From Mesaphorura yosii (lineage: Eukaryota > Arthropoda > Collembola > Poduromorpha > Tullbergiidae), in NCBI GenBank assembly GCA_009869945.1, contig WIXG01000144.1, forward strand, positions 62,001 through 126,000: 64,000 nucleotides of DNA, written 5' to 3'. A program made the translations under genes and the position numbers. Positions 37,785-53,426 of this stretch are shown here, piece by piece. The stretch's first letter is position 1. Each line of letters starts with the position of its first letter. A model generated the notes under the pieces. That model saw only the letters and a program-made list of their open reading frames with translations, did no database searches and was not told the DNA's origin.

Positions 37785-40700
37785 TTAGACTAGTTTGGCT
37801 TCGTGTGCCATGCTCCAGAACATAGAGCCAGCATCCGCCAAAAGTGCCGAAGGCGAATCAAATTCTTTGATTCGACCCTTGTCCAGCACCAAGACTCGGG
37901 TGGAGTCCATGATCGTGTTAAGTCTATGAGCAATCGTTATTACTGTCGAATCTGCAAATTCCTTCCGAATGGTGGCCTGAATGAGGTTGTCAGTCTCCAG
38001 GTCAAGGGCAGCGGTTGCCTCATCTAGTACGAGAATTCGCGTTTTGCGAAGGAGAGCACGTGCGAGGCAAATTAGTTGACGCTGTCCGACGCTAAAGTTC
38101 TTGCCTTCTTCATCAACAACGTATTGTAAACCCTCCCCAAGCTGGAAAACCAAAGGCTTTAAGTGAGCAAGTTCCAGACATTTCCAAATTTTCTCGTCTG
38201 AGTGTTGGTTAAAAGGATCCAAGTTTAGACGCATGGTGCCGGAAAGCAGTACTGGATCCTGGGGGATAATGGTAATCTTACTTCGCAGTTCATGGAGTCC
38301 AAGTGATGAAATGTCTCTGCCATCGATGAAAATCTGGCCACCAGCAGCCTCAATAATTCGGAACAAAGCCAGAGTGAATGAACTTTTGCCCGCTCCTGTA
38401 CGTCCGACGATCCCTACCTTCTCTCCAGGATGTACAGTGCAGGTAATCTCCTTGAGGACCAAATCAAGCCCTTCACGGTATCTCGTCGAATAATCGACAA
38501 AGCATACTTCACCTTTGTGTGGCCATTCCGGTGGAAGTTTATTTCCAGACTCTTCCCATGTAGCCTCTTGTGGCAACTCCCGCAACTCCCCGAGCCGCTC
38601 GACCGAAACGATATTGGTTTCCAAGTCAGACATTTTGAGAGCCAAGAAATTGAGAAGGCTTGTAATCTGAAGAGAGTAAGTAATGATGAGGCCCGCGTCT
38701 CCAGAACTCAAAGTGTCACTGGAGAAGAGGGAAAAGAGGCAGGTTGCGAGAATGATGAGCACACCAATGAATTCTAAACGTAGCGAGATCCACAGATTGG
38801 AAGTGACAAAGGGAAAGTAGCATCTATGGTTCATATCCACCCGATGTTCGGACTCGGCCATGAATTTGTCCTGTAGACCAAACGCGCGAATGGTAGTGGC
38901 TCCAGACACGGTTTCTCCGAAATGGGAGTAAATGGGTGAACGTGTAACCGACTCCAGACGTTTAAGCTGGCGACTGGTGGCGGCGTAGAAGCGTTGAAGG
39001 AAAATGTACACTACAGTCATTGGAATGATGAACGCGATGAAGATGGGTGTTTTGAAGGAGATGACAACGATTGCGGCGAAAACGGAAAGAGCGACTGGCA
39101 TGAACAATCGAAGATGGTGCGGTACCACGTTGTCAGTCGTGTCCACGTCCCTGGCAAAGCGATTGATGAGCCGCCCCAGTGGTGTTGTGTCAAAGTAAGA
39201 CATCGGGGCACGCAGAACTCGATTGATGGCGGCGGAATGCAAAGCCTGAGTGGCTATTAAACTGAAAATTGCGAGACTTCCAGTGCCCACCAAAGTGGCG
39301 AGGGCATGCGCGGCAGTGATTGATCCATAGCCTAAGAGGTACTTGTCTGTAGTTGGCCCATGCGTTGCCCCAGTGGTCAATTCATCTTCATCTTGGGTGG
39401 CTTCGCTCGACCAATCAGAGAGCCAAATGGAACTGTATCCGTTCAGCCCCACTGCTGCGATATTGAAGAAGATGGAGAAGAGGAAAAGCGGGAGACCGCC
39501 TGACTGGAAGTATTGGAAGTAAACTTCCATCTTGATCACGCCTTCAGCGACTGCCTCTTCCCGGACCAGTTGATTCTTGTGTTCCTGCGGAAGTGAAGGC
39601 CCGCATATGCCTTTCTCTGCTTCATTGCCCTCTACGATTTCGTGATTCTGATTTTCTGAAGCGGGATTCCCTTTGCTTTCGACTTTGTGGCAGAGGTGCT
39701 GCAGAAGAAAATAAGAAAATTCGCCCTGCATCGTGAGAAGCTCTTTGTATGTGCCGGTTTCTATGATACGACCTTCTTTGAGCACCATTATACGATCGAC
39801 CAATGGAAGAAAATTGACACCATGTGTGACGAGAACCCTTGTACTTCTACGGAGGAGTCCTTCGGGGCCGATGAGATTCTCAAAGATGTGATTGGCCACA
39901 TGTGCATCGACAGCACTCAATGGGTCGTCAAACAGGCAGACAGACGACTTCTTGTAAGCCGCCCGAGCTAGAGCTACACGCTGCTTCTGGCCACCACTCA
40001 AGTTGATTCCCTTCTCCCCGATTTCGGTTGCGTCTCCTGCAGGTAGGAGTTGGAGATCCGGTTTTAGAGCGCAGGCATCCAGTACACGACTGTAGAGATC
40101 AGCATCAAATTTGCTTCCGAAGAGAATGTTTTCCCTGAGCGTGGCGTTCTGGATCCACGCCACTTGTGATACGTACGCGATGCTTCCGATCGTGTTGACT
40201 TCACCTGTATGTTTCTGAAGTTCTCCAAGAAGGGAGCACAGGAGGCTACTTTTGCCAGAGCCAATTGACCCCACTACCGCCACCAGCTCGCTCTTCTTTA
40301 CACATAAGTTGATGTCCCGGAGTGTTATTCCCTCGTCCGTCCAACCAAAGGTGCCTTGCTTCACAAATATTGGATCCTCGAAGTGAGGGTCATGAGTGAC
40401 TGCATTGGGGTCCAGCTCTTCCCTGTTTAGGAAGTCGCCAAGGCGCTTAACGGAGACCAGGGCCTGGGCAATTAGGGATGCTGCAGTCGGAAGAAGGATC
40501 ATGGGGTTTCGCATAATATTGAAAAGACTCAGTGCCACAAATGCCTTCTCAGCATTCAGAATATGTGCCTGCGGGTCGGAGAGAACGTATGCACCGAAGG
40601 AAGCGAGAGACACGAGGACAGGCGCGCATGTAAAAATGGTGAGAGCCAAAGAATACAGTAATGCAGACTTTCGAAGAAGAATCATCTCCTGAGCACGAAT

Positions 40701-42597
40701 CGACTCAATCTGCGCAAGGTAGCTGGGCTCCCATGCATACAGTTTCAGAACTTTGATCCCAGACAACACTTCGGAAGTTAGTTTGATCCGCCGATCTTTC
40801 AGGCTCATTTGTGCTGCCTGGTATCGACGAGCGTAGACAGCTACCAGGGCATTGGTGGGGATGAGCAAGAGGAGTACACCCAGGCCAGCGAGTATTGAGG
40901 CTCCCAATGTGTTGTAGAGAAGCCAGCCGCATATTACAACCTGAAAGGGTGAACCCAAGCTCGAGATTAGCATTGGCATCATGTCTGCCAATTTTTGAGC
41001 GTCCACTGCCATTAGGTTTACAATTTCACCCATTGACTCACGACGACCCGCATTCGAAATGAGCAGAGCCTTGCGGAAGATTGCATTGGAAATTGCAGCG
41101 CGCATTCGCATCCCGATAAGCAGAGCACGCTTGGCGCTGCTTGAGCTGAGGATCGATTGCAGCACGGCTGCGACGACTATAACTGTAGTGTAGAGGTATC
41201 CCCGCCAAGCCGGCTCGGAGTTGCTGCTGGTCACGTGTGAGACAAGGGAACGTACCATTTCCGGTTGCACAAAGACGAGAAGGTCCGAGCTGATTTTGAG
41301 TAGAGCACCAAATGCGAATGTTGACCCGAAACACTTGAAAAGTGGGACCAAGATTCTGGGCTTGGCCCTGCCACCAAATTTGCTGTTGTTGGTGACAGTG
41401 GCCTTCCCCTGCAGCCGTTTCCAATACTTGCAGAATTTGGTCACCTGGACTTCGGATCTATCCAATGGATTGAGATCCCACAGGTCCTCCCGAGTCAGTG
41501 GTCGGCGGTAACCTGCCCATCCCAATGAGTCATACCACAGAAACAACAATTTGGAAATGAATGTCGACGTTTTGTCGGGACTTGGTTTCTGCAAGAAATA
41601 TACACTATCATCAACAAACTGATTCATTAGTTTCATTTGAGATAGTGTCTTACGTCCAGGCGAAATTGAGACTTGTTGTCCTGCAGCACATCATCTCTGA
41701 CGCATTCCAGGACGAATCGTGCACACACGAGAGGAAAGACTATCATGCGGGTCTGATAAATAATCTCCTCTTTATTCTGTAAATCCCACCAGAATAGCTG
41801 TTAGATGATGATGTGAATATTGCCTGATAGCTCATGAAAGCCAAGGCGTAAGCCTTATACACTTACAATGATGCCATTCTGGTACTTTCTAACAGCCGTC
41901 CGGAACAGAACTCCTTGAGACATCAAGCTGAGGAACCAGAAAAAAAATTGAATCCCAGACTGGATCCCAACGCCATGTGTGAGAAGTGTAAGAATTGAGA
42001 TCATAATCTGAAATTATAGCATAATTTCGTGAAGTAAGTACATAAATGTTGATAAAATGTTGGGGTTTTATCATAAAATCGTATCTACTCATGAGCATTG
42101 CACGAATGATGTTGGATGCCGGTCGAAGACAGATGGAATACGCATCAAACCAGGAAAGTGTATAAAGATCATGTTCTGCTCAGTTGAAGAAAATAGACAT
42201 GGAGGACATGGAGGACATGGGACATGCAATAATCGCAATTGTTGCTTACGTATCCTGAGAGCTGCAAGCCCGACGACACCCAATCGACGGAGTAAATTTT
42301 TGTATCACCCGGGAGACCCAGGAGGCGTACCAGTTGAGTGATGTAAACCCCAACGAGCACAGTACTGAGGAACATTTTGGCCAGAAAAATGAGATTGACT
42401 GTTTTCAGAGAGGACCAATTAAGTGATTTTGATTCCGATCTTAAGATGTTGATGATGTCGACCAAGCCAAGAATGAGGAGGAAGGCGAAAGGGGCAGTGG
42501 TGACGACGGATTCCTCGAAGCATTGCGTCAAATATGGATCAGTGGTGTCCCATGACAGAGCAGGGTCCCAAAATTTGGAGCCACAGTAGTTGTCCAT
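37785..42597 (-). CDS. Multidrug-resistance-associated protein, full-length ABCC1-like exporter
   Basis: ATP-driven exporter of organic anions and glutathione, glucuronide or sulfate conjugates across the plasma membrane. Four exons: 42597-42250, 42007-41867, 41776-41654 and 41588-37785, all phase 0, total 1471 residues (human MRP1 has 1531). The three small exons encode a five-helix TMD0. The last 3.8-kb exon encodes everything else. NBD1 has Walker A GSIGSGKSS (about 644), signature LSGGQ (about 734) and Walker B ending in Asp-Asp (VCLFDDPLSAVDAHV), the usual ABCC degenerate site. NBD2 has GRTGAGKSS (about 1266), FSVGQRQ (about 1369) and ILVLDEATAALD (about 1389), with the catalytic Glu. 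TMD1 and TMD2 are complete. The frame is open 48 bases beyond the exon 4 acceptor; that extra Met and 15 residues are intron. Introns are 242, 90 and 65 bp. Confidence 0.95.
42197..42226. repeat. Short GGACATGGA tandem repeat in ABC transporter intron 1
   Basis: Three to four copies of a 9-base ACATGGAGG-like unit occur inside the 242-bp first intron (42008-42249), which may explain why that intron is longer than its neighbours. Confidence 0.75.
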
Positions 42598-42955: not shown

Positions 42956-44103
42956 TTATTTTTTTCTCTTATAAATATTTGTCAACAGATACAGAAATGG
43001 TTTTTGTGGAATCTCATCCGGCAAACATTTGATTGCGTTATGAATATTTTCGAATGTCTCATTCTCATATTTTATGAATTCAGCTTGAATGCCAAGGTCA
43101 ATGTACAGGCTTTTAATGGTGTCGCTTGCACTGGAATCCATGCATCCATAATTCTGCTCCAAGACGGCCTTCTGGATCGTATTCATATTTTGTAAAGCGT
43201 TGACCACCAACCACGTACATTTCCCCTCCTGAATGTCCGTTCCAACCTTGCCTGTTATCTCTGGATCTCCAAAGCAATCCAGCATATCATCCTGTACTTG
43301 GAACAGGTGGCCAAGTTGAAGCAGCACGCCTTCACATGCTTCCACAGCAGCTGCAGTAGTCTTGACTCCAGCCAAGGCCATGGCCAATCGTATTGGCAGG
43401 TAGAATGAATAGTAGGCTGTCTTGTATTTGCAAATTGTAGAGTACAGATCAGCCGTGAAGCTATGGACGCTTCCTGCGACACTGGCACGAGTATCCAGGC
43501 ACTGCCCTAACGTGGTCTTCAGTGTGACGTCGTGGAAAATCATGACGAGCTCCATGAAACATGGCAAGTGGCCAAAATACTTATGGAGAAGCAAGTACAC
43601 GATGTTCTCCAGCATAAATGCATCATTGATGGCCAGTAGTCCGACACCTTTTGAAATCAGATCAGGAATACCTAGTTCTTATATTACAATCTGCCGTAAA
43701 TCATGTTAAACTTACCATCAACTTTGTACCAACAAGCTCGCCCTCTTCTTGTCTCTGACCCATCCATAATGTCATCGGCAATGAGACATGATGCCTGATA
43801 TATTTCGATGCACCAACCAAGAATCATCGCCATCCGTTCTTGATCCGGTGTCAATGCCAATTCGATATCTTCGTTGTTGTTGTTTTGGGCTTCCTTCTTG
43901 ACAAAACACTGATATGCGTACACGACTGCGAGTCCCCGAGCACACTTTCCGTGTGGTACATTTATCTCCATGCACTTTAACAGCCAGGCAATACTGTCAG
44001 AAATATCTGCTTGCTTGCTGGTAGGGCCAAAATGAGATTTGATGTCCAGAAGCAAAGAATGCCATACCTGCCCGAATTTAGATCGTAATTCTTTGTCAAC
44101 CAT
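42956..44103 (-). CDS. Isoprenyl diphosphate synthase, farnesyl-PP synthase family with unusual chain-length site
   Basis: Condenses isopentenyl-PP with allylic diphosphates, feeding dolichol, prenylation, quinone and juvenoid pathways. Exons 44103-43716 and 43671-42956 join through a split Gly codon (WYKVDG to IPDLISKGVG) to 367 residues, the normal farnesyl-PP synthase length. Both metal-binding motifs are intact: DDIMD at 110-114 followed by GSETRRG, and DDMLD at 257-261 in FQVQDDMLD. YKTAYYSFYLP and GKVGTDIQEGKC are also present, and the basic tail is KRKK. Positions -5 and -4 before the first Asp are Ser105 and Cys106, where animal farnesyl-PP synthases have an aromatic pair that stops chain growth at C15. 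The intron (43672-43715) is only 44 bp. AATAAA overlaps the stop codon. A geranylgeranyl-PP or longer product, or a specialised terpene role, is possible. Confidence 0.9.
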
Positions 44104-45353
44104 TTTTAGTGGTCAGTGAAGTGTACTATTCTCGAACAAAATAATGTAATATTCACTTCTGTCTAATGATTTATACTGATCCGAGTTTGGAGTCAAGAAG
44201 CATGGGCTGAGGAAATCTGTCTCCATACCAAACATGCTATAAATGTATGAAAACTCTTTCTCCCTGTAAATAGTAAACAAAGATATTGGCATCGTGTACA
44301 CAAGATTGAAGTGTGACTATCTTGTCATGTCATGCAGAAATGAGTTGTCGTGTGCAAAAAAACGTCAATAATGATTAAAAATACTACATGTCGCATCTTT
44401 GTTGATGAAATGAAAATACACAAATTCTCTGGAAATTATTAAGGTGCTATTTAAAGGTAAATTAGATTAATTAAATTTCCATAATCGATGAGACGTTCCT
44501 GAGTTCCATGAATTGATTACTAATTCAGGGTATTATTTTTAGTTTTTAGTCTATTCATGAGACCATTAGCAATATTTGATCCGAGGTTTCTCACCGCTGA
44601 ACAAACATGTTTTCAGTTTTGTACACGTCGGCTACGGTTATGCGCATGTTTTGATATTCAGATTTGCAGATTAGCTCAAATTCTCAATTCATGAGCAGAT
44701 TGCATCACGACATATTTCCCACTAAATAAAATGTTCGAAAGGCAGTACAGGCGGCCTGGCCTCACTTAATTTATTGGAAGGAACATTTGTAAACTGTGTT
44801 GAGTGTTGTTTGACATGTTATGTTGACATCCGCTGAATCTTGGGCTCAGACTTGAAGCGGTTTCACGGAGTCCAATCGTTGACTCATTGTTCAGTATAAT
44901 AGGCTCAGTTAAATTGCAATTCGTCGTATGACTTCGTCTCGTGTCTGCTCCTTTTCTTGTACACGTTCTGCTGCTCGTACGTGTACTGCTAGTACTACAA
45001 AGTATCGTAGGCTCAACTTGCCCCATTTGTCACTCAACTTTAATCATATTAGTTGACGGACAAAGACAAAACTAGGAAACTCTCAACTTTTAATTGAATT
45101 GATTTGTGAACCGCATCAGTAAACCAGAGAAAAAGGTGAGCGACCAGTGCAGTGTTTATAAATGGATAAGTGTGGTTTCAATTTTTATTTATTTTTAAGG
45201 TGAAGGCCAACACAAGTGAGCAATAGCATTGGTCAACCACACACACGTGTTCCTGAATATGGTAAACAAAAGATCGTTACAGTACTTTTATCTTGCGTAC
45301 TTCTAGATGCATTTTCTGAATTGTAGGCCAGTGGTATCAATGTCCCAAAAATC
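44104..45353. promoter_or_regulatory. Divergent intergenic region between prenyl synthase and glycosyltransferase fusion
   Basis: About 1.25 kb separates the minus-strand prenyl synthase start (44103) from the plus-strand fusion start (45354), so both promoters should lie here. No coding sequence is supported. A GTGAGC donor at 45135 and a TTGTAG acceptor ending at 45326 could define a 5' UTR intron of the fusion gene. No clear TATA box was identified. Confidence 0.4.
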
Positions 45354-48300
45354 ATGCCACCATTTAGTTTGGTTGGTTCATGCATTCTCATTCTCATGTT
45401 GTACTTTGTCAATCACTATTGGACAGTACTTGCCGGGCTGTTCTTTATCTTCGCAGCATCTCTCGTGTTCTACTGGTTACTGACGTGCAGAATTCCTTTC
45501 GGTCGTGACTGCTTTCGAGATGCTGCTCCTTCAGCGCTCATCGTCCTTGGATCAGGCGGGCATACACGTGAGATATTGACCATACTATCGAAAATACCCA
45601 ACTGGAATCAATTTAAGCCCATTTATGTGATGGCCAAATCAGATGCTTACAGTTTGCTGGGTTTGTGGGCATTTGAGACTAGAATTTCACGACACGCAGG
45701 TACGCGTTACGTTGTTGAACGCGTAACTCGGCCAAGAGAATGTTCCGAAACTCGTAGTTCACGTCACCGTTTTAAATATTTAAGTTTGTACTACAATGTA
45801 TGGGTATTTCTCAAGTGCATTCGTTGCTATTTCGAGGGCTTGCGCTTGCTGTTAAAGTACAGACCAAAAATTGTGTTGGTCAACGGCCCAAGTACGGCCG
45901 TTCCAATTGTTCTGGCTTCACGTACACTGAATATGCTCGGATTTACTCAAACTGATTCGGTATTTGTAGAAAGCATTGCGCGAGTACGGACACTTTCGCT
46001 CTCTGGGCGATTAATGTCAGGTTGGCCTGATCATGTGTTTGGATCTTGGCCTGAAATGTGTCTTAAGTATGGGTTTGATCTTCTCGGAGAGTTTAGATGT
46101 CAACCGGCCTTGGGTACAAGTCCAAGCTCCACCGCATACAGTCAAAAAACGGCTTTGGTGACGGTTGGCTCGACCAAATTTCAAAAACTTACTCGCCTCG
46201 CTATGAGTCCAGAATTTTCGAGTGTCCTGGTAGCAGAGGGTTTCACAGATTTAGTGATTCAGATAGGTGGAGATAATAAATGCGGAATTCTTGATGTCAA
46301 TTCCAATGAGAGAACGGATATTCGTGTCCAGATTAGAAAAATGATTCCAGCTAGAGAATTTTCCACGCTTTTGAACAGTGTGCAGCTTTTGATAACGCAC
46401 GCTGGCGCAGGCACGTTACTCCAGGCGCTTTCAACACGGAATCAGAGATGCAGCCGCATAATTGTTGTTCCAAATGAAGGACTTGCTGAAAATCATCAGT
46501 GGGAACTTGCAGAGAAACTTGAGGATCTCGGACAGATTCAATATGCCCCAGTAAATGATTTGCTAGACTGTATTCAGGACCAGAAATCAGAAGTTCCGCA
46601 TTCGAACTTGGAATTAGAGTTAAGTCCAACATTTCAAAATTTATTCCAGACAAAGGCATCTGAACTGCAGATGCAAAATTCAGGGAAAAAAGATGATCAA
46701 TTTACCATCGTGATTCCATGCACAGAGTCAGATCTTCCACTTTTATCCATTCTGATGTCATCACTCCAAAGGTTTCTGCGATGGGAAGATGTGGATACGA
46801 TCTACGTTATCACTCCGCCTAGACATAAATGTGCAATTCAGGAAGAGGTGTCCTCCTTCTCACGTGCAGGGAAAATTCGTGTTATCGATGAAACTGAGGT
46901 GATTCCAAAGGGCTCACTTGCAAACTGTGAAACATTCCCGAAATGGAAAGCAGGATGGTTTAAGCAGCAATTGGTGAAATTAGGAATTGCTTCCGTTGTT
47001 CGTACAACTTTTTATTTGGTACTTGACTCCGATTGCATTCTCATCCGACGCTTGGGTTTCACTGATTTATTCACGGTCACTGTTGAAGATGGCGAGAGGA
47101 AGACAAGAGCTTGGCTTCAGACGGAAGCCGCATTCCGACACTCGAAATGGTGGAAAGGTTCGGCACGAATTCTTGGCCTTTGCGGGGCAGAGTGCGAATC
47201 TTTGCTCACGAGTGGGCCTGCAATGGGAGTCACTCCACAGATGTTCTCAGTTGACATTGTCCAAAGTTTGTGTGAAGCAATCGAGGCTTCGTGCTCGTAT
47301 TCTAAATCGTGGCACAAAGTTCTCAGCTCGAATCGTGTCCATTTCCCCGCTTCAGCGGTAGTAAAAGGATTAGCGAAAGCTGCGTACAAGAGATCGGTGA
47401 AGAATTTGGATATTGAGCACTGCAATTGGACAGAGTATGGATTGTACTACCTTTTCGCTCTTAGATCAGGTTTACTTAACGAATATCACAAGTGTAAGGA
47501 AAATGCACTCGCTAATTATGGTGCCTGTGTTTGGGAACTTGGGCATTTGTATCATTGGAACCCGTATAATCGAGCGGGCCATGATGGTGGCTTCTTCACT
47601 ATATTTCAGAGTAACCTTAATCTCGGATCAGCGATTCCGAGAGCTTTCGAGTCACAATACGAATACAAGGACCATGAGCCCGATGCTAAAATTGCTTGCG
47701 TGATATTGACCCCATGGAATTCCAAGAACACTGATCGTCAATTGCAGTACGCAATTGACAACTTCAGTAAACAAACATGGCCCGCATCACAGCGGCGCCT
47801 AATCATTTGCCATTGGAGTTCAACAGTGTTCGAATCCAATTTTGCTCATTCCAGCGGTTTAGTTAAATTCATGTCACTAGACTCGATTTGTGCTCCATAC
47901 GCTTCTCCTGCAGATACTCTTACCGCAATTGTGCCTCATCTTGGGAAAATTGATTGTGAGTCTGACTATATAGCTTCGTGGCCACCGAACTCGTGGTCCT
48001 CTCCGTTCCGCCTTGCGATTCAGTACGATGCATTCAAGTCTCACGGAGTTAACCATGTTTGCATTGGAACTGGATGGTATGATTCAATATTTTTCTCCAC
48101 CCTGAAGTTGAATCTGCCTTCCGAAATCGGGTTCTGTTTAGAAATGCCGCATCTCGTACTAAAGTTCGCAGAGCTCAATTGTACTATTAATCTCAATTCT
48201 GTCCGATCTGAACCTGCACCGGCAAAACTGGCAGCATTGGCCGCTCCTTTCTATTTCGATGCACCACGAACCGCTCGCAGAATTTATATACTGAGTTCGG

Positions 48301-49706
48301 AACTAGAGTTTATCCCCGTGGTTGGTGGAATTAATACATGGTTGCGCATTGTTATATCTCAACTCCTTCATCACAAGTCTCGCAACTTTGATACGGATAT
48401 GGATATGGACATTGAATTTGTGTTTTGTGGTCTGAAATGTGGAGACAGGGAACTAGAAATTCCTGCCCCCTTGCAGGAGCAGAGTTCAGTCCAGTTTCGG
48501 TGGTTTGATACTCGGGTGTCGAGTAGCACTTCCTCGCTCAAAGAGTATTTCGGTGGGTTCTCTTCATATTCGGGTTTATTCAAAGATTTGCAACTATTCG
48601 GAGGTTTAGCTTTGGAATGGATTCTGCAGGACTGCCAACCGAACGATGTTCTTGTGACTACAATCGCATACGAGTGCCACCCGGCTTCAATTCTTCATTT
48701 GCTGTCCAAAGGAGTAAAATTGGTGCACACTGTCCACAGTCTGGTACCACAGAAATTGATTCAGTCATCTCGAACACTTTCGCGTGACCGGTTGAATTGG
48801 AAAGAAATGCTGGGCCATTTTGTATTTATGATACTGCTTCGCATTGGACCTGAAGACCTGATGAATCTGGGCAAGACTCCCAGGTTCAGGCGATTGCTCC
48901 CCAATTTAATTGCCAGGTCTCTTGAGATTGAATCTTTTCTCATGAAACATGCGACAGACATTTTTGTACCGTCCACACGCCTTACTAACGACACAGCACG
49001 CCTTTACCCGTTTGCGAGTTCGCGAATTCAGTATGTGCCATGGGGCCTTCCTTCGGATACATACGTGATCGGAGATGAAGTCTTGTCGCCACCACAAGAA
49101 CTTGAATGTCGAAATGTGGAGAACACATCAACGATCCATTGTCTCAGTCTCTGTAAACTATCTGCACAAAAGGGCCTCGATTTGCTGCTGGACGCATTTA
49201 AATTTATTGAGACCTTGGATTCAACCCTGGGCAAACGATTGCAGTTAAATATTTGTGGTGACATGTCTTACCATAAGGATTCTTGTTACATGCGTCAAAT
49301 TAACGATAAGGTCGCAAGTTTAAAGTACGTGCACATTAATTTCTGTGGTTGGGTTACCGGTGTCCAGAAACAAACTCAGTTGCGCCAAGCGCACGTGTTC
49401 CTGTCAACCGCACTGACTGAGCCGTTCGGATTTTCACTACTCGAAGCGATGTCTTACGGGGTTCCCATCGTGGCGCTCGCTGCTGAGGGACCGTCTGACA
49501 TTGTGCGGGACGAATTCGGACGACTAGTGCGCATTTCGAATGATTTTGAGGTGACGGTAAAAGAATTTGGCACGGCAGTGCTGAGCGTGTGCTCGGCTAC
49601 CCAAAAAGAGTATGAGAAGATGTGCGATGAAGCCAGATCATGTGCGAAGAGGTGGAACACGGATCCTTTAATTAATGGATTAATAAAGCTAGCTGCTCGC
49701 GATTAA
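45354..49706 (+). CDS. Multi-domain glycosyltransferase fusion: ALG14-ALG13-DUF6492-like-GT-A-like-GT4
   Basis: One uninterrupted 1450-residue frame. Residues 8-45 form a hydrophobic anchor. About 60-245 is ALG14-like: VLGSGGHTREIL, VNGPSTAVPI, FVESIARVRTLSLSG. About 265-405 is ALG13-like: ALVTVGSTKFQKL, LLITHAGAGTLLQAL, AENHQWELAEKL. In eukaryotes ALG13/ALG14 together add the second GlcNAc to dolichol-PP-GlcNAc at the ER. About 450-690 resembles DUF6492 (GT-A fold): KAGWFKQQLVKL, YLVLDSDCIL with a DxD-type Asp558/Asp560. About 778-915 looks like a GT2-type GT-A domain (LTPWNSKNTDRQLQYAID, FSKQTWP) without a clear DxD. About 975-1450 is a GT4-type transferase: VGGINTWLR, VHTVHSL, LCKLSAQKGLDLLLDAF, and EPFGFSLLEAM giving the E-x7-E motif. 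The absence of introns contrasts with most neighbours. A poly(A) signal follows at 49779. Acceptor, sugar and origin are unknown; horizontal acquisition is possible. Confidence 0.85.
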   Translation: MPPFSLVGSCILILMLYFVNHYWTVLAGLFFIFAASLVFYWLLTCRIPFGRDCFRDAAPSALIVLGSGGHTREILTILSKIPNWNQFKPIYVMAKSDAYSLLGLWAFETRISRHAGTRYVVERVTRPRECSETRSSRHRFKYLSLYYNVWVFLKCIRCYFEGLRLLLKYRPKIVLVNGPSTAVPIVLASRTLNMLGFTQTDSVFVESIARVRTLSLSGRLMSGWPDHVFGSWPEMCLKYGFDLLGEFRCQPALGTSPSSTAYSQKTALVTVGSTKFQKLTRLAMSPEFSSVLVAEGFTDLVIQIGGDNKCGILDVNSNERTDIRVQIRKMIPAREFSTLLNSVQLLITHAGAGTLLQALSTRNQRCSRIIVVPNEGLAENHQWELAEKLEDLGQIQYAPVNDLLDCIQDQKSEVPHSNLELELSPTFQNLFQTKASELQMQNSGKKDDQFTIVIPCTESDLPLLSILMSSLQRFLRWEDVDTIYVITPPRHKCAIQEEVSSFSRAGKIRVIDETEVIPKGSLANCETFPKWKAGWFKQQLVKLGIASVVRTTFYLVLDSDCILIRRLGFTDLFTVTVEDGERKTRAWLQTEAAFRHSKWWKGSARILGLCGAECESLLTSGPAMGVTPQMFSVDIVQSLCEAIEASCSYSKSWHKVLSSNRVHFPASAVVKGLAKAAYKRSVKNLDIEHCNWTEYGLYYLFALRSGLLNEYHKCKENALANYGACVWELGHLYHWNPYNRAGHDGGFFTIFQSNLNLGSAIPRAFESQYEYKDHEPDAKIACVILTPWNSKNTDRQLQYAIDNFSKQTWPASQRRLIICHWSSTVFESNFAHSSGLVKFMSLDSICAPYASPADTLTAIVPHLGKIDCESDYIASWPPNSWSSPFRLAIQYDAFKSHGVNHVCIGTGWYDSIFFSTLKLNLPSEIGFCLEMPHLVLKFAELNCTINLNSVRSEPAPAKLAALAAPFYFDAPRTARRIYILSSELEFIPVVGGINTWLRIVISQLLHHKSRNFDTDMDMDIEFVFCGLKCGDRELEIPAPLQEQSSVQFRWFDTRVSSSTSSLKEYFGGFSSYSGLFKDLQLFGGLALEWILQDCQPNDVLVTTIAYECHPASILHLLSKGVKLVHTVHSLVPQKLIQSSRTLSRDRLNWKEMLGHFVFMILLRIGPEDLMNLGKTPRFRRLLPNLIARSLEIESFLMKHATDIFVPSTRLTNDTARLYPFASSRIQYVPWGLPSDTYVIGDEVLSPPQELECRNVENTSTIHCLSLCKLSAQKGLDLLLDAFKFIETLDSTLGKRLQLNICGDMSYHKDSCYMRQINDKVASLKYVHINFCGWVTGVQKQTQLRQAHVFLSTALTEPFGFSLLEAMSYGVPIVALAAEGPSDIVRDEFGRLVRISNDFEVTVKEFGTAVLSVCSATQKEYEKMCDEARSCAKRWNTDPLINGLIKLAARD

Positions 49707-49776
49707 TGCGAATGTGAATCACTTGTGAAAAATCAAATCTTTATAATTTAGTTACTAATTTTATTCGATATTTTAA

Positions 49777-49795
49777 CCAATAAAACATTTATTGG
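49777..49795. terminator. Palindromic poly(A) signal after the glycosyltransferase fusion
   Basis: Perfect 8-base arms (ccaataaa / tttattgg) around 3 bases put an AATAAA on both strands, about 75 bp after the stop codon of the fusion gene. Its use as the plus-strand poly(A) signal is likely; use on the other strand is unknown. Confidence 0.6.
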
Positions 49796-50004
49796 GGGTA
49801 CTTAAACAAATTTAAAGTAAAAGACGTAGAAGCGTAAAGACGTAAAGCTTTACTTGGTTACATGCTTACGGACAGTTTTAATTGAACGCATTTAATTTAA
49901 CCAGTGAATTAAACTGCACGTTCAAACTGAATTCTACTGTACTTCTACTTCAGTTAAGGATCAACTGAACGTACTTGTAACGACTGAAGAATGAGACAAT
50001 GATG

Positions 50005-50170
50005 ATGGAGAAGATACCCCAGAAACTCCTTCATTCTATCCTCACGTACCCCACTCCGAGTCAATTTGGAAGCCTGTACGATATGGAGAAAGAAGCCAAA
50101 TAAATTGACCTTCATCGATTTCATCGTGATGAGCACTATGAATATGCTGCTTGTTCTGTCAAATAAATAG
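50005..50170 (+). pseudogene. Chemoreceptor C-terminal relic 3
   Basis: The sequence from 50005 parallels the last 50 codons of the receptor at 50671-51862: IPQKLL, then GSLYDMEKEAK. It then hits a TAA and continues one frame away with TFIDFIVMSTMNMLLVLSNK and a stop at 50168-50170. The stop, the frameshift and a small deletion before GSLYDMEK make it non-functional. No upstream part is recognisable. Confidence 0.8.
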
Positions 50171-50670
50171 ACGTTTCTTCTAAACAGCAATGATGGCAAT
50201 TAAACTGCAGGTTTTGACGCATAGTTAATGCACTCACAATGTCACAATACCGCAAATATTCACCAAAACGAAAGGGGCTTTGGCAAATCTGTGTGTTGTC
50301 AGACGCTTTCTCAATTACTCGACCCTGAGTCTTGCCATGTACGTTTTGCGGACAGCGTGGAGACCTTTCAGTCAGTGTGAACGTTGATTAAAAAGTCATG
50401 ACTTATGAGACGAAAGGAATAATCAAGCCGCCACCACACCGGAGCTTTTTGTCTGTTGGTGATTATAGACAATGGTGCGTGCGACAATCTACATTTTAAA
50501 GTTGATTAAAATTGCTTTGTTTGTCAAGATGACCTTAGCTTATGAGGAGGTCGTGCCATTTGTCAATTGCGCCGTAGCGTAATGGCATGATTACAATTAG
50601 AAAAGCATTCCTTAGAATAGTTGTATTTTGAGCCACTGCATCAAATCTTTCTAGTCGTTCTCAATCAAAG
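50171..50670. other. Intergenic, upstream of chemoreceptor at 50671
   Basis: I see no coding sequence or repeat here. It presumably holds the promoter of the receptor at 50671. Confidence 0.4.
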
Positions 50671-51862
50671 ATGTTCACTCTGACCGAACTCCAAATCATC
50701 GAGCGCAACGCGGCACTCATGAGTTGGTTAGGAATCGGACTGGTCTGGAATCCCAAAGCAAAAATGCTGGAAATGTCTTCAACGTCGCTGAAATACGTGG
50801 GCGTCTTCCTAGCCGGAAGCTCTCACGTCATCCATATCTACCTAACATCGCGCACAGTTTTGAGTTTCTTCGCCTCAGCAGAACCAATCACATCGCACGG
50901 TTTTCGGCTCATGTCAATATTTCTCCTTCCAGCGTACTGCATGGGTCTCGGGTGGCAGGTTGTGCTGGTGGCTCGTCGGGCTGACGTGGCTCATCTCTTC
51001 AATCAAATGCTGTTCTGGAGTGTTAAAAACGGTAGGAAACTGAATACAGTGCGGTTAAGATCAAAATTTATTGCTTGCAAGTGCGCTTTCAGGAATTTCT
51101 TCTGAGCTGACCGCCAGAGCGAAATACTTCCGTTTCAGCCAAGAACTCTGGTGGCTCCTGGCCTGTGCTGCAGTGGTGATGGTCGCCACGGGCGAGTTTC
51201 TCACCAGGTCCGAAACTACCCGGCCCTGGAACCCTTGCTTATTGCTCTGCTTTGTGCTCTACACGTCGTGCTACAACAGCTTTGGCATGGTTCTGCTTTC
51301 AGTAGCCCAAGTTTACACGTACCATTTCCTGGTCATTGCCTACGACGGACTTCGACTGTGCTTTCCATCAGAAGTGGCGCTGGATCCATTAGTCGCGGTT
51401 GCTGACCGCTATAAAGTACTACTCCTCTTCTGTAAATACTTTAATGAAGTCATGTGCCGAGAAATTCTTCCATCACTGAAGTACATTTTCAGCTTAGTCG
51501 CGATGATACTGTTTAGTATGGCTGTTCATATCGATCCCGCCAACGTCAACTTTGCCACAATCGTCTTCAAACGAATCTGGATGCTGAACTCCGTATACAT
51601 CTGCGTAGCGCTGGTCATCGCTGCAAACGTCATGAGTGTGGTGTGGTTTCACGGACAATTGTACGTGCGGCGATTGAAGGAAGATACGCAATGCATGGAC
51701 AAAGAATCCCAGAAACTCCTCCGTACCTTTACCAGGTCTTTGCTCCCAATCAGAGTCAACGTCGGTGGATTGTACGATATGGAAAAAGAAGCCAAGTTGA
51801 CATTTATCAACTTTATTATTGGTGGTACGATGAATATGCTGCTTATACTCTCAAATAATTAA
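50671..51862 (+). CDS. 7TM chemoreceptor, plus-strand cluster member 1
   Basis: Exons 50671-51031 and 51093-51862 (61-bp intron, GTAGGA...TTTCAG) give 376 residues. The join splits the Gly codon in VKNG|ISSELTARAKYFR, the same site as in the receptor at 60760. It begins MFTLTELQIIERNAALMSW, a start shared by the two distal paralogues (LELDIIE), and ends GLYDMEKEAKLTFINFIIGG and NMLLILSNN, the family C-terminus. Several hydrophobic helices are visible (for example FLAGSSHVIHIYL, WLLACAAVVMVATGEF, MILFSMAVHI). Read as a gustatory/odorant-type receptor channel of sensory neurons; ligand unknown. Confidence 0.72.
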
Positions 51863-52235: not shown

Positions 52236-53426
52236 ATGATCTCGGAAGAATCCTTTCGTCTCTTCTCTTATGTAATCCGTGTCGGGCACCGGACAAAAAT
52301 ATTACCCTACAAATGGAACCCCATCAGCTACAAGGTGGAAGTCGTGCCCAACCTGAATCGATGGCGGTTGACAGCAGTGGCCAATTTCGTGATTCAGTGT
52401 GCACTGATATGGTCCGCCTTTGTTGGGGTCTGTGAGCCAGGAGCGACACTCGAGGAATGGATGTTCTTTACTATACTCGCCCTCGGGCCGGCTTTGGCAA
52501 TCGTGCTTCAATTCTACAATTTCGTGCACCCGTCCGAGTTCGCAGCGCTCCTGTCAAGGAGTCACCTCTTCGCCTGGAGGCTGGCCCTCTACCATCGGCT
52601 TGACACGAGGAAAAAGGACGGGATGGAGCGGTTAGCGAAGTGTTTTCTTGTCTCATTGGCGGCACTGCCAATCATCGCTGGAGTCGTAGATGCTGTCTTG
52701 GTTCACAGGGGAGACGACAGACTCTTCCGGTACTTTAGGACAGAGTATCTGGGTCTGAATATCTTGGTCGGATTTGCACGGGGCTACGTGTGCATATTTC
52801 CGGTTCTTACAAGCTCCTTCTTCGTGATGCTGGCGGTAAGTTACACACACTCGATGGACAACTTCCTTAGAAAGACAGGTAAAAGTAAAAGGTTAGAGTC
52901 TAAGAATCAAAGCAATTCAATCTCCATTCTTTTCCTGACTCACTCTAGATTCAATCCAGACAGGAGTGAGCTTCAGCTGAAAAGGGACCATCTCCTCTTC
53001 CGTGCGCATCAGGTGCTGCACCTCCAAGCCGCGGAATTCACAGGGAATCTAATTATGATGATATTTGGATTCGGCTGCCTGTTCCAAATCACGAGCATTT
53101 GCATCACAATTCAAATGGGAGCTAAAATTCAAGTCGTTAACACGATAGTCGTTGCATACCTGGCCACGGGTGCCACGAAAGCGTGTCTGAAGTTTGCAAT
53201 GAAGTACACAGAGGCTTCGAGAGAGTTTCCAGCTTCGTTCCAGGCTTGGTGCAAGGAAATGAAGAACGGCCAAATTGCTCTGCAGAAGGGCCAACGAGTC
53301 GAGTTTCGGACTTATCGCCCATTCTACTTCAAAATCGGTAGTTTTCTACATATCACCGACACTACTTTCGCGGTAGCGTCATCGGACGTCGTTCTTCAAG
53401 GCGTTTGGACGATTCTTCTAATGTAA
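52236..53426 (+). CDS. 7TM chemoreceptor, divergent member
   Basis: A receptor of the same general type but a different subfamily from its neighbours. Although 52236-53426 is fully open (396 codons), the best model removes an 81-bp in-frame intron (52879-52959, GTAAAA...CCAG). That joins DNFLRKT to DRSELQLKRDHLLFR and gives 369 residues; the removed stretch is Ser/Asn/Lys filler. Hydrophobic segments include WMFFTILALGPALAIVLQF, CFLVSLAALPIIAGVVDAVL, VCIFPVLTSSFFVMLAV and NLIMMIFGFGCLFQI. The C-terminus HITDTTFAVASSDVVLQGVW replaces the CTFxNFxxxGTMNL end of the others. It lacks the MLTQxELDIIE N-terminus. Confidence 0.65.
   Translation: MISEESFRLFSYVIRVGHRTKILPYKWNPISYKVEVVPNLNRWRLTAVANFVIQCALIWSAFVGVCEPGATLEEWMFFTILALGPALAIVLQFYNFVHPSEFAALLSRSHLFAWRLALYHRLDTRKKDGMERLAKCFLVSLAALPIIAGVVDAVLVHRGDDRLFRYFRTEYLGLNILVGFARGYVCIFPVLTSSFFVMLAVSYTHSMDNFLRKTGKSKRLESKNQSNSISILFLTHSRFNPDRSELQLKRDHLLFRAHQVLHLQAAEFTGNLIMMIFGFGCLFQITSICITIQMGAKIQVVNTIVVAYLATGATKACLKFAMKYTEASREFPASFQAWCKEMKNGQIALQKGQRVEFRTYRPFYFKIGSFLHITDTTFAVASSDVVLQGVWTILLM

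Follow-up and report, generated by a model that had tools for sequence, protein, structure and literature searches.

What could an animal do with a single gene that strings together both halves of an ALG13/ALG14-like glycosyltransferase (GT) and further sugar-transferring domains, and how might it have come by such a gene? The question is raised by a 64,000-nucleotide stretch of the genome of the collembolan Mesaphorura yosii (assembly GCA_009869945.1, contig WIXG01000144.1, positions 62,001 to 126,000; hereafter the window), which encodes a fusion protein of 1450 amino acids (the window protein). We propose, with about even confidence, that this ALG14/ALG13-DUF6492-GT4 polypeptide is a membrane-bound line that adds about three sugars to a lipid-linked sugar, and that its gene was acquired from elsewhere. 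More tentatively, and at less than even confidence, the arthropod may have taken up a lipid-linked glycan line of an undescribed family in one gene, its ALG-type halves fused to a DUF6492 transferase of bacterial type and a GT4 transferase, and may make with it a new glycan beside its N-glycan pathway.

The gene is a single open reading frame (ORF) with an ATG start and no internal stop, in a window free of N. In 20 first-order Markov windows of 64 kb each, the longest stop-free runs arising by chance measured 167-232 amino acids, and the uninterrupted 4.35-kb frame described by an earlier reading made from the letters alone (the sequence-only reading) was thus borne out. Four Pfam families match the protein, every one past its curated cut-off: Alg14 (PF08660; 108.9 bits against a cut-off of 27), GT28_C (PF04101; 43.8 against 22), DUF6492 (PF20102; 149.7 against 22.9) and Glycos_transf_1. 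The ALG14-, ALG13-, DUF6492- and GT4-like blocks of the earlier reading are thereby confirmed, and the profile check that it had proposed returned both ALG14 and ALG13 at the N-terminus (Table 1). Motifs in the translation include GSGGHTREIL, VESIARVRTLSLSG, THAGAGTLLQAL, DSD and E-x7-E. The last is a signature of GT4, a family whose enzymes retain configuration, and the C-terminal part of the protein combines it with a Pfam match past the cut-off and a GT-B fold. In an alignment of 17 rows (the window protein and 16 relatives, with denominators counting the rows that reach a site), GGH is kept in 15/15 rows, E206 and NHQ in 16/16 each, D558 together with D560 in 16/16, and E1356 together with E1364 in 15/15; some other motif positions (T270, G353 and P1371) differ in one row. 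In the DUF6492 part of the predicted model strands alternate with helices, the structure-match lists being taken up by the GT4 part. With its DSD motif this domain is likely a metal-dependent enzyme of GT-A type. Immediately N-terminal of WTEY within DUF6492, the window protein carries an insertion of about 22 residues (670-691; 47361-47426) that is absent from all 16 aligned relatives.

The part between DUF6492 and GT4 is of a different kind. A scan of the window protein matched no Pfam family to residues ~775-960, where W876 and W881 occur in 16/16 rows possessing the module, with no Asp in between; we take this W-x4-W to stand at the position of the GT-A DXD, from our own comparison of the alignment with GT2 sequences. 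The relative P0014 is without most of the module, which is therefore dispensable in one family member. The missing DXD and the missing Pfam match speak against the GT-A transferase that the sequence-only reading had seen here, and the module is probably not catalytic. From the five-part glycosyltransferase of that reading, three transferase units survive, namely ALG14 plus ALG13 jointly, DUF6492 and GT4, while the fifth block was over-read; three units and one extra module would be the more exact description.

Table 1. Features of the fusion gene and its flanks, in window coordinates.
Feature	Position	Strand	Basis or remark
Possible 5' untranslated region (UTR) intron, GTGAGC ... TTGTAG	45136..45326	+	Consensus-like ends only
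Whole coding frame	45354..49706	+	1450 amino acids plus stop codon
Hydrophobic stretch, residues 1-45, predicted membrane anchor	45354..45488	+	Kyte-Doolittle and model
ALG14-like half, residues 62-239	45537..46070	+	PF08660, E 3.5e-31; GSGGH 66-70, E206
ALG13-like half (GT28_C), residues 266-406	46149..46571	+	Pfam PF04101, E 3.6e-11
DUF6492, residues 452-758	46707..47627	+	PF20102, E 1.2e-43
DSD motif, residues 558-560, possible metal-binding DXD	47025..47033	+	D558, D560 conserved
Module without Pfam family, residues ~775-960	47676..48233	+	No DXD; W-x4-W at 876-881
GT4-type GT-B transferase, residues 973-1450	48270..49703	+	Glycos_transf_1 at 1263-1393, E 2.2e-17
E-x7-E motif of GT4 (E1356, E1364)	49419..49445	+	Both Glu conserved
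AATAAA, possible poly(A) signal	49779..49784	+	73 bases 3' of stop codon

A search with the window protein gave one match among 5854 candidates, P0001 (34% identity across 96% of the query), and a search with P0001, which scored the best 7992 candidates by shared words, gave 16 proteins, itself included. These relatives are 876-1420 amino acids long and 32-39% identical to the window protein; their longest contigs measure 2.9-32 kb, and their source tags are jgi in two cases and ena or lgn in the remainder. From the tags and the short contigs, our guess is that they are environmental in origin. By their listed Pfam domains, all four families are found in 13 of the 16 (P0001-P0012 and P0014) and are collinear with the window protein in the alignment, so that the domain order is a trait of the family. 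When the 17 proteins, the window protein among them, were rescanned, DUF6492 was present in 17, Alg14 and GT28_C in 16 each, and Glycos_transf_1 in 15. In P0011 the N-terminal half of ALG14 is missing, while P0013 and P0015 stop ahead of or early within the GT4 part and P0016 begins within DUF6492, C-terminal to DSD; P0015 ends within the N-terminal half of GT4 despite a 32-kb contig, a break-off that could come from an intron. In a tree of 15 rows, from which P0013 and P0016 were excluded as partial, the window protein forms a long branch adjoining that of P0014, likewise long, and its placement is therefore unsure. The ALG14-ALG13-DUF6492-GT4 order was described in none of the titles and abstracts that the literature searches listed, subscription journals and bioRxiv being mostly outside that scope. 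Architecturally the protein is a conserved variation on known transferase families, found in an unexpected host and indicative of a broader family of proteins.

We propose that the N-terminal hydrophobic stretch, where the Kyte-Doolittle mean over 19 residues reaches 2.37 and where residues 3-44 form a helix in the predicted structure, would anchor the chain in a membrane, and that the ALG14 and ALG13 halves would pack as one MurG-like GT-B enzyme. This unit might transfer an N-acetylglucosamine-like sugar with beta linkage; DUF6492, using DSD in a metal-dependent reaction of GT-A type, could attach a second one, and GT4 could attach a third through an alpha linkage, with the ~775-960 module serving as a non-catalytic spacer or acceptor-binding unit. 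Since one Lactococcus exopolysaccharide operon has pssD, pssE and then a GT4 gene (two other pssD-pssE loci differ), the fusion can be read as a single-chain assembly line resembling an operon. The protein would work at an internal membrane, on the side facing the cytosol. Among 14 control genomes, 9 match Bac_transf (PF02397, a bacterial initiating transferase) and 13 match Polysacc_synt (PF01943, a flippase). The genome searched (93.0 Mb, 1127 contigs) has no match to either, and the acceptor would therefore probably be a dolichol-linked sugar of the host. The corresponding interpretation in the sequence-only reading is partly supported: the domain order, the animal and apparently arthropod genome, the motif residues kept in the three transferase units and the membrane-fitting hydrophobic N-terminus agree with it, the GT-A-like block does not bear out a transferase. 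Alternatively, a multi-step transferase of this kind could act on a protein, a soluble acceptor or a lipid other than a polyprenyl diphosphate, for example in making a secreted or storage glycan. The GT4 model also matches glycogen synthases, sucrose-phosphate synthases and the acceptor-glycosylating SdgB and TarM, and a genome free of PF02397 and PF01943 would suit such a role as well. However, the families to which the N-terminal half is related (ALG14/ALG13, PssD/PssE and MurG) all glycosylate lipid-linked acceptors, and the hydrophobic N-terminus also argues against this alternative, which we consider unlikely.

Several observations weigh against a lipid-linked line acquired from elsewhere. 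P0009 and P0010 are without most of the N-terminal hydrophobic stretch. The window protein falls short of the NCBIfam equivalog cut-offs for PssD (52.2 against 110 bits) and PssE (50.1 against 120), and reaches 54.2 bits on the WelK glucuronosyltransferase model, with its cut-off of 400. The structure model of the N-terminal half has a predicted local distance difference test (pLDDT) score of 65.5, and MurG chains superpose on it with a root-mean-square deviation of 9.6-11.5, so the model gives no demonstration that the halves pack together. The archaeal homologue Agl24 is reported to require the His of GGH and not the conserved Glu (PMC8993221), and its E114, the likely counterpart of E206, is dispensable for activity. 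A search for literature on DUF6492, within the scope given above, found none. On the NCBI PssD and PssE models the host's own ALG14 and ALG13 reach 91 and 93 bits against 52 and 50 for the fusion; the fusion halves are thus divergent, their source is not indicated by these scores, and the chemistry of so divergent an ALG part may have shifted. Finally, the codon usage of the fusion gene is fitted slightly worse by four neighbouring gene pieces than by a uniform model, and the ALG comparison that bears on origin draws on one eukaryote, with its ALG14 spliced by eye, and three bacteria.

That comparison is as follows. The ALG14 profile of the fusion family gives the host ALG14 81 bits against 43-57 for three bacterial PssD proteins, its ALG13 profile gives the host ALG13 85 bits against 46-55 for three bacterial PssE proteins, and the window sequence alone ranks the host proteins above PssD/PssE in the same way. 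This hints that the ALG parts of the fusion are nearer to eukaryotic ALG13/14 than to PssD/PssE. The host proteins come from separate ALG14 (C238) and ALG13 (C38) genes elsewhere in the genome, which make the fusion an addition and not a replacement; the host ALG14 is spread in pieces over different frames, as introns would leave it. PF04101 has 36 matches in the genome, and the 34 beyond the fusion and ALG13, most of which cover the profile's second half, may represent an expanded UGT family. DUF6492 occurs once in this genome and, outside the fusion family, was seen in bacteria only, this genome being the one eukaryote covered. Its bacterial relatives score 104 and 74 bits in the phylum of an acidobacterial metagenome-assembled genome, 54 in Paenibacillus and 35 in Sphingomonas; the domain was found in 3/297 genomes of that phylum and in 3/72,556 plasmid records at E 0.01. 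Taken with a G+C content at third codon positions (GC3) of 0.437, against 0.525-0.658 in the four neighbouring gene pieces, this makes horizontal transfer of the ready-made fusion the likely and simplest account. The arthropod lineage probably acquired the intact gene from another organism, the donor probably being a eukaryote.

Two other sources were considered and rejected. For a viral origin, viral-contig scans with three queries (the third being P0015) returned pattern matches (52, 7 and 16), none of which was confirmed as a relative; for a full-length prokaryotic relative, 86 pattern matches yielded one confirmed locus, covering residues 1264-1373 only. Phage records gave two weak matches to the whole protein, both in the GT4 region, and none to the ALG halves. 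Because the viral, phage and prokaryotic scans used 2-6 short peptide patterns each, these are weak negatives.

Vertical inheritance, which concerns the origin of the gene and not its chemistry, would make the fusion an old eukaryotic one, retained here and lost from most other animals. It would fit the high ranking of the host ALG14 and ALG13 by the family profiles and the divergence of the relatives from the window protein. It fits less well with a DUF6492 that is single in the genome and otherwise seen in bacterial relatives, with a fusion coding part that is intronless where the host ALG14 is apparently intron-split, and with a codon usage that is off. Since the search covered one animal genome, this explanation is weakly tested; on balance we think it improbable. 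Contamination or mis-assembly, with a protist or microbial fragment joined to the contig, is a good deal less probable still, even though the low GC3 and the probably environmental assemblies of the relatives would agree with it. The gene is embedded in a contig of 178,607 bases, between animal-type genes on its upstream side and a zinc-finger ORF on its downstream side; the window is free of N, and positions 44100-51000 contain no direct repeats of at least 20 bases (four imperfect inverted pairs are present). Moreover, the FYMINK/GARP ratio is 1.11 in the window protein, against 4.15-5.01 in 14/16 relatives, a composition typical of AT-rich genomes, 2.29 in P0014 and 2.57 in P0015. A non-functional remnant, to which the module without DXD might point, is hardly credible for 1450 open codons in which the motif residues of three transferase units are kept at ~35% identity to relatives.

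Neighbours of the fusion gene within the window include a furin-like protease, an ABCC/MRP transporter, a farnesyl-diphosphate-synthase-like gene and a C2H2 zinc-finger ORF, and the genome as a whole has 66 matches to the cuticle domain Chitin_bind_4, which fits an arthropod. The best solved structure for the farnesyl-diphosphate-synthase-like gene is the isoprenyl diphosphate synthase 8a6u, which we take to be a leaf beetle enzyme. The MRP/ABCC-type transporter (37785-41636, minus strand) has 1283 codons open in one frame. On the plus strand, an open stretch at 50671-51070 begins MFTLTELQIIERN and contains hydrophobic segments without a Pfam match; it resembles the beginning of a membrane protein with several helices, perhaps a chemoreceptor. 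A 396-amino-acid ORF at 52236-53426 (plus strand) has no Pfam match up to E 1. Ahead of the fusion gene, the candidate 5' UTR intron uses one of two donor-like sites, and several acceptor-like sites are present.

If the proposed line is real, an animal would have gained several consecutive glycan-building steps through one gene, and DUF6492 would receive a position in a likely reaction order. The short conserved catalytic motifs leave each step open to knock-out, with the glycan readable by mass spectrometry.

Known systems offer partial parallels. Alg14-Alg13 fusions are described (PMC8993221) in kinetoplastids (Leishmania and Trypanosoma), which like the window protein have both GlcNAc-transferase halves on one chain in the order Alg14-then-Alg13, and in Entamoeba and Dictyostelium with the order reversed. 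Unlike all of these, the window protein continues into DUF6492, an extra module and GT4, and its genome additionally encodes separate ALG13 and ALG14. Bacterial exopolysaccharide clusters encode PssD/PssE (Cps14F/Cps14G) and WelK, which resemble it in being a two-part or fused MurG-like transferase. Bacterial DUF6492 proteins share its domain, with D-x-D in 4/4 sequences read by eye; however, they are stand-alone ORFs of 278-328 amino acids in the 4/4 examined. At one locus from the phylum of the acidobacterial metagenome-assembled genome (L022, 263-2382), the DUF6492 ORF lies directly 3' of a GT4-like ORF, the listed frames overlapping. Among multi-domain glycosyltransferases of animals, exostosins and LARGE1 belong to other families and work in the lumen of the secretory pathway. 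Like the window protein, they nevertheless have two or more transferase domains or modules per chain (PMC9178029, PMC13411425).

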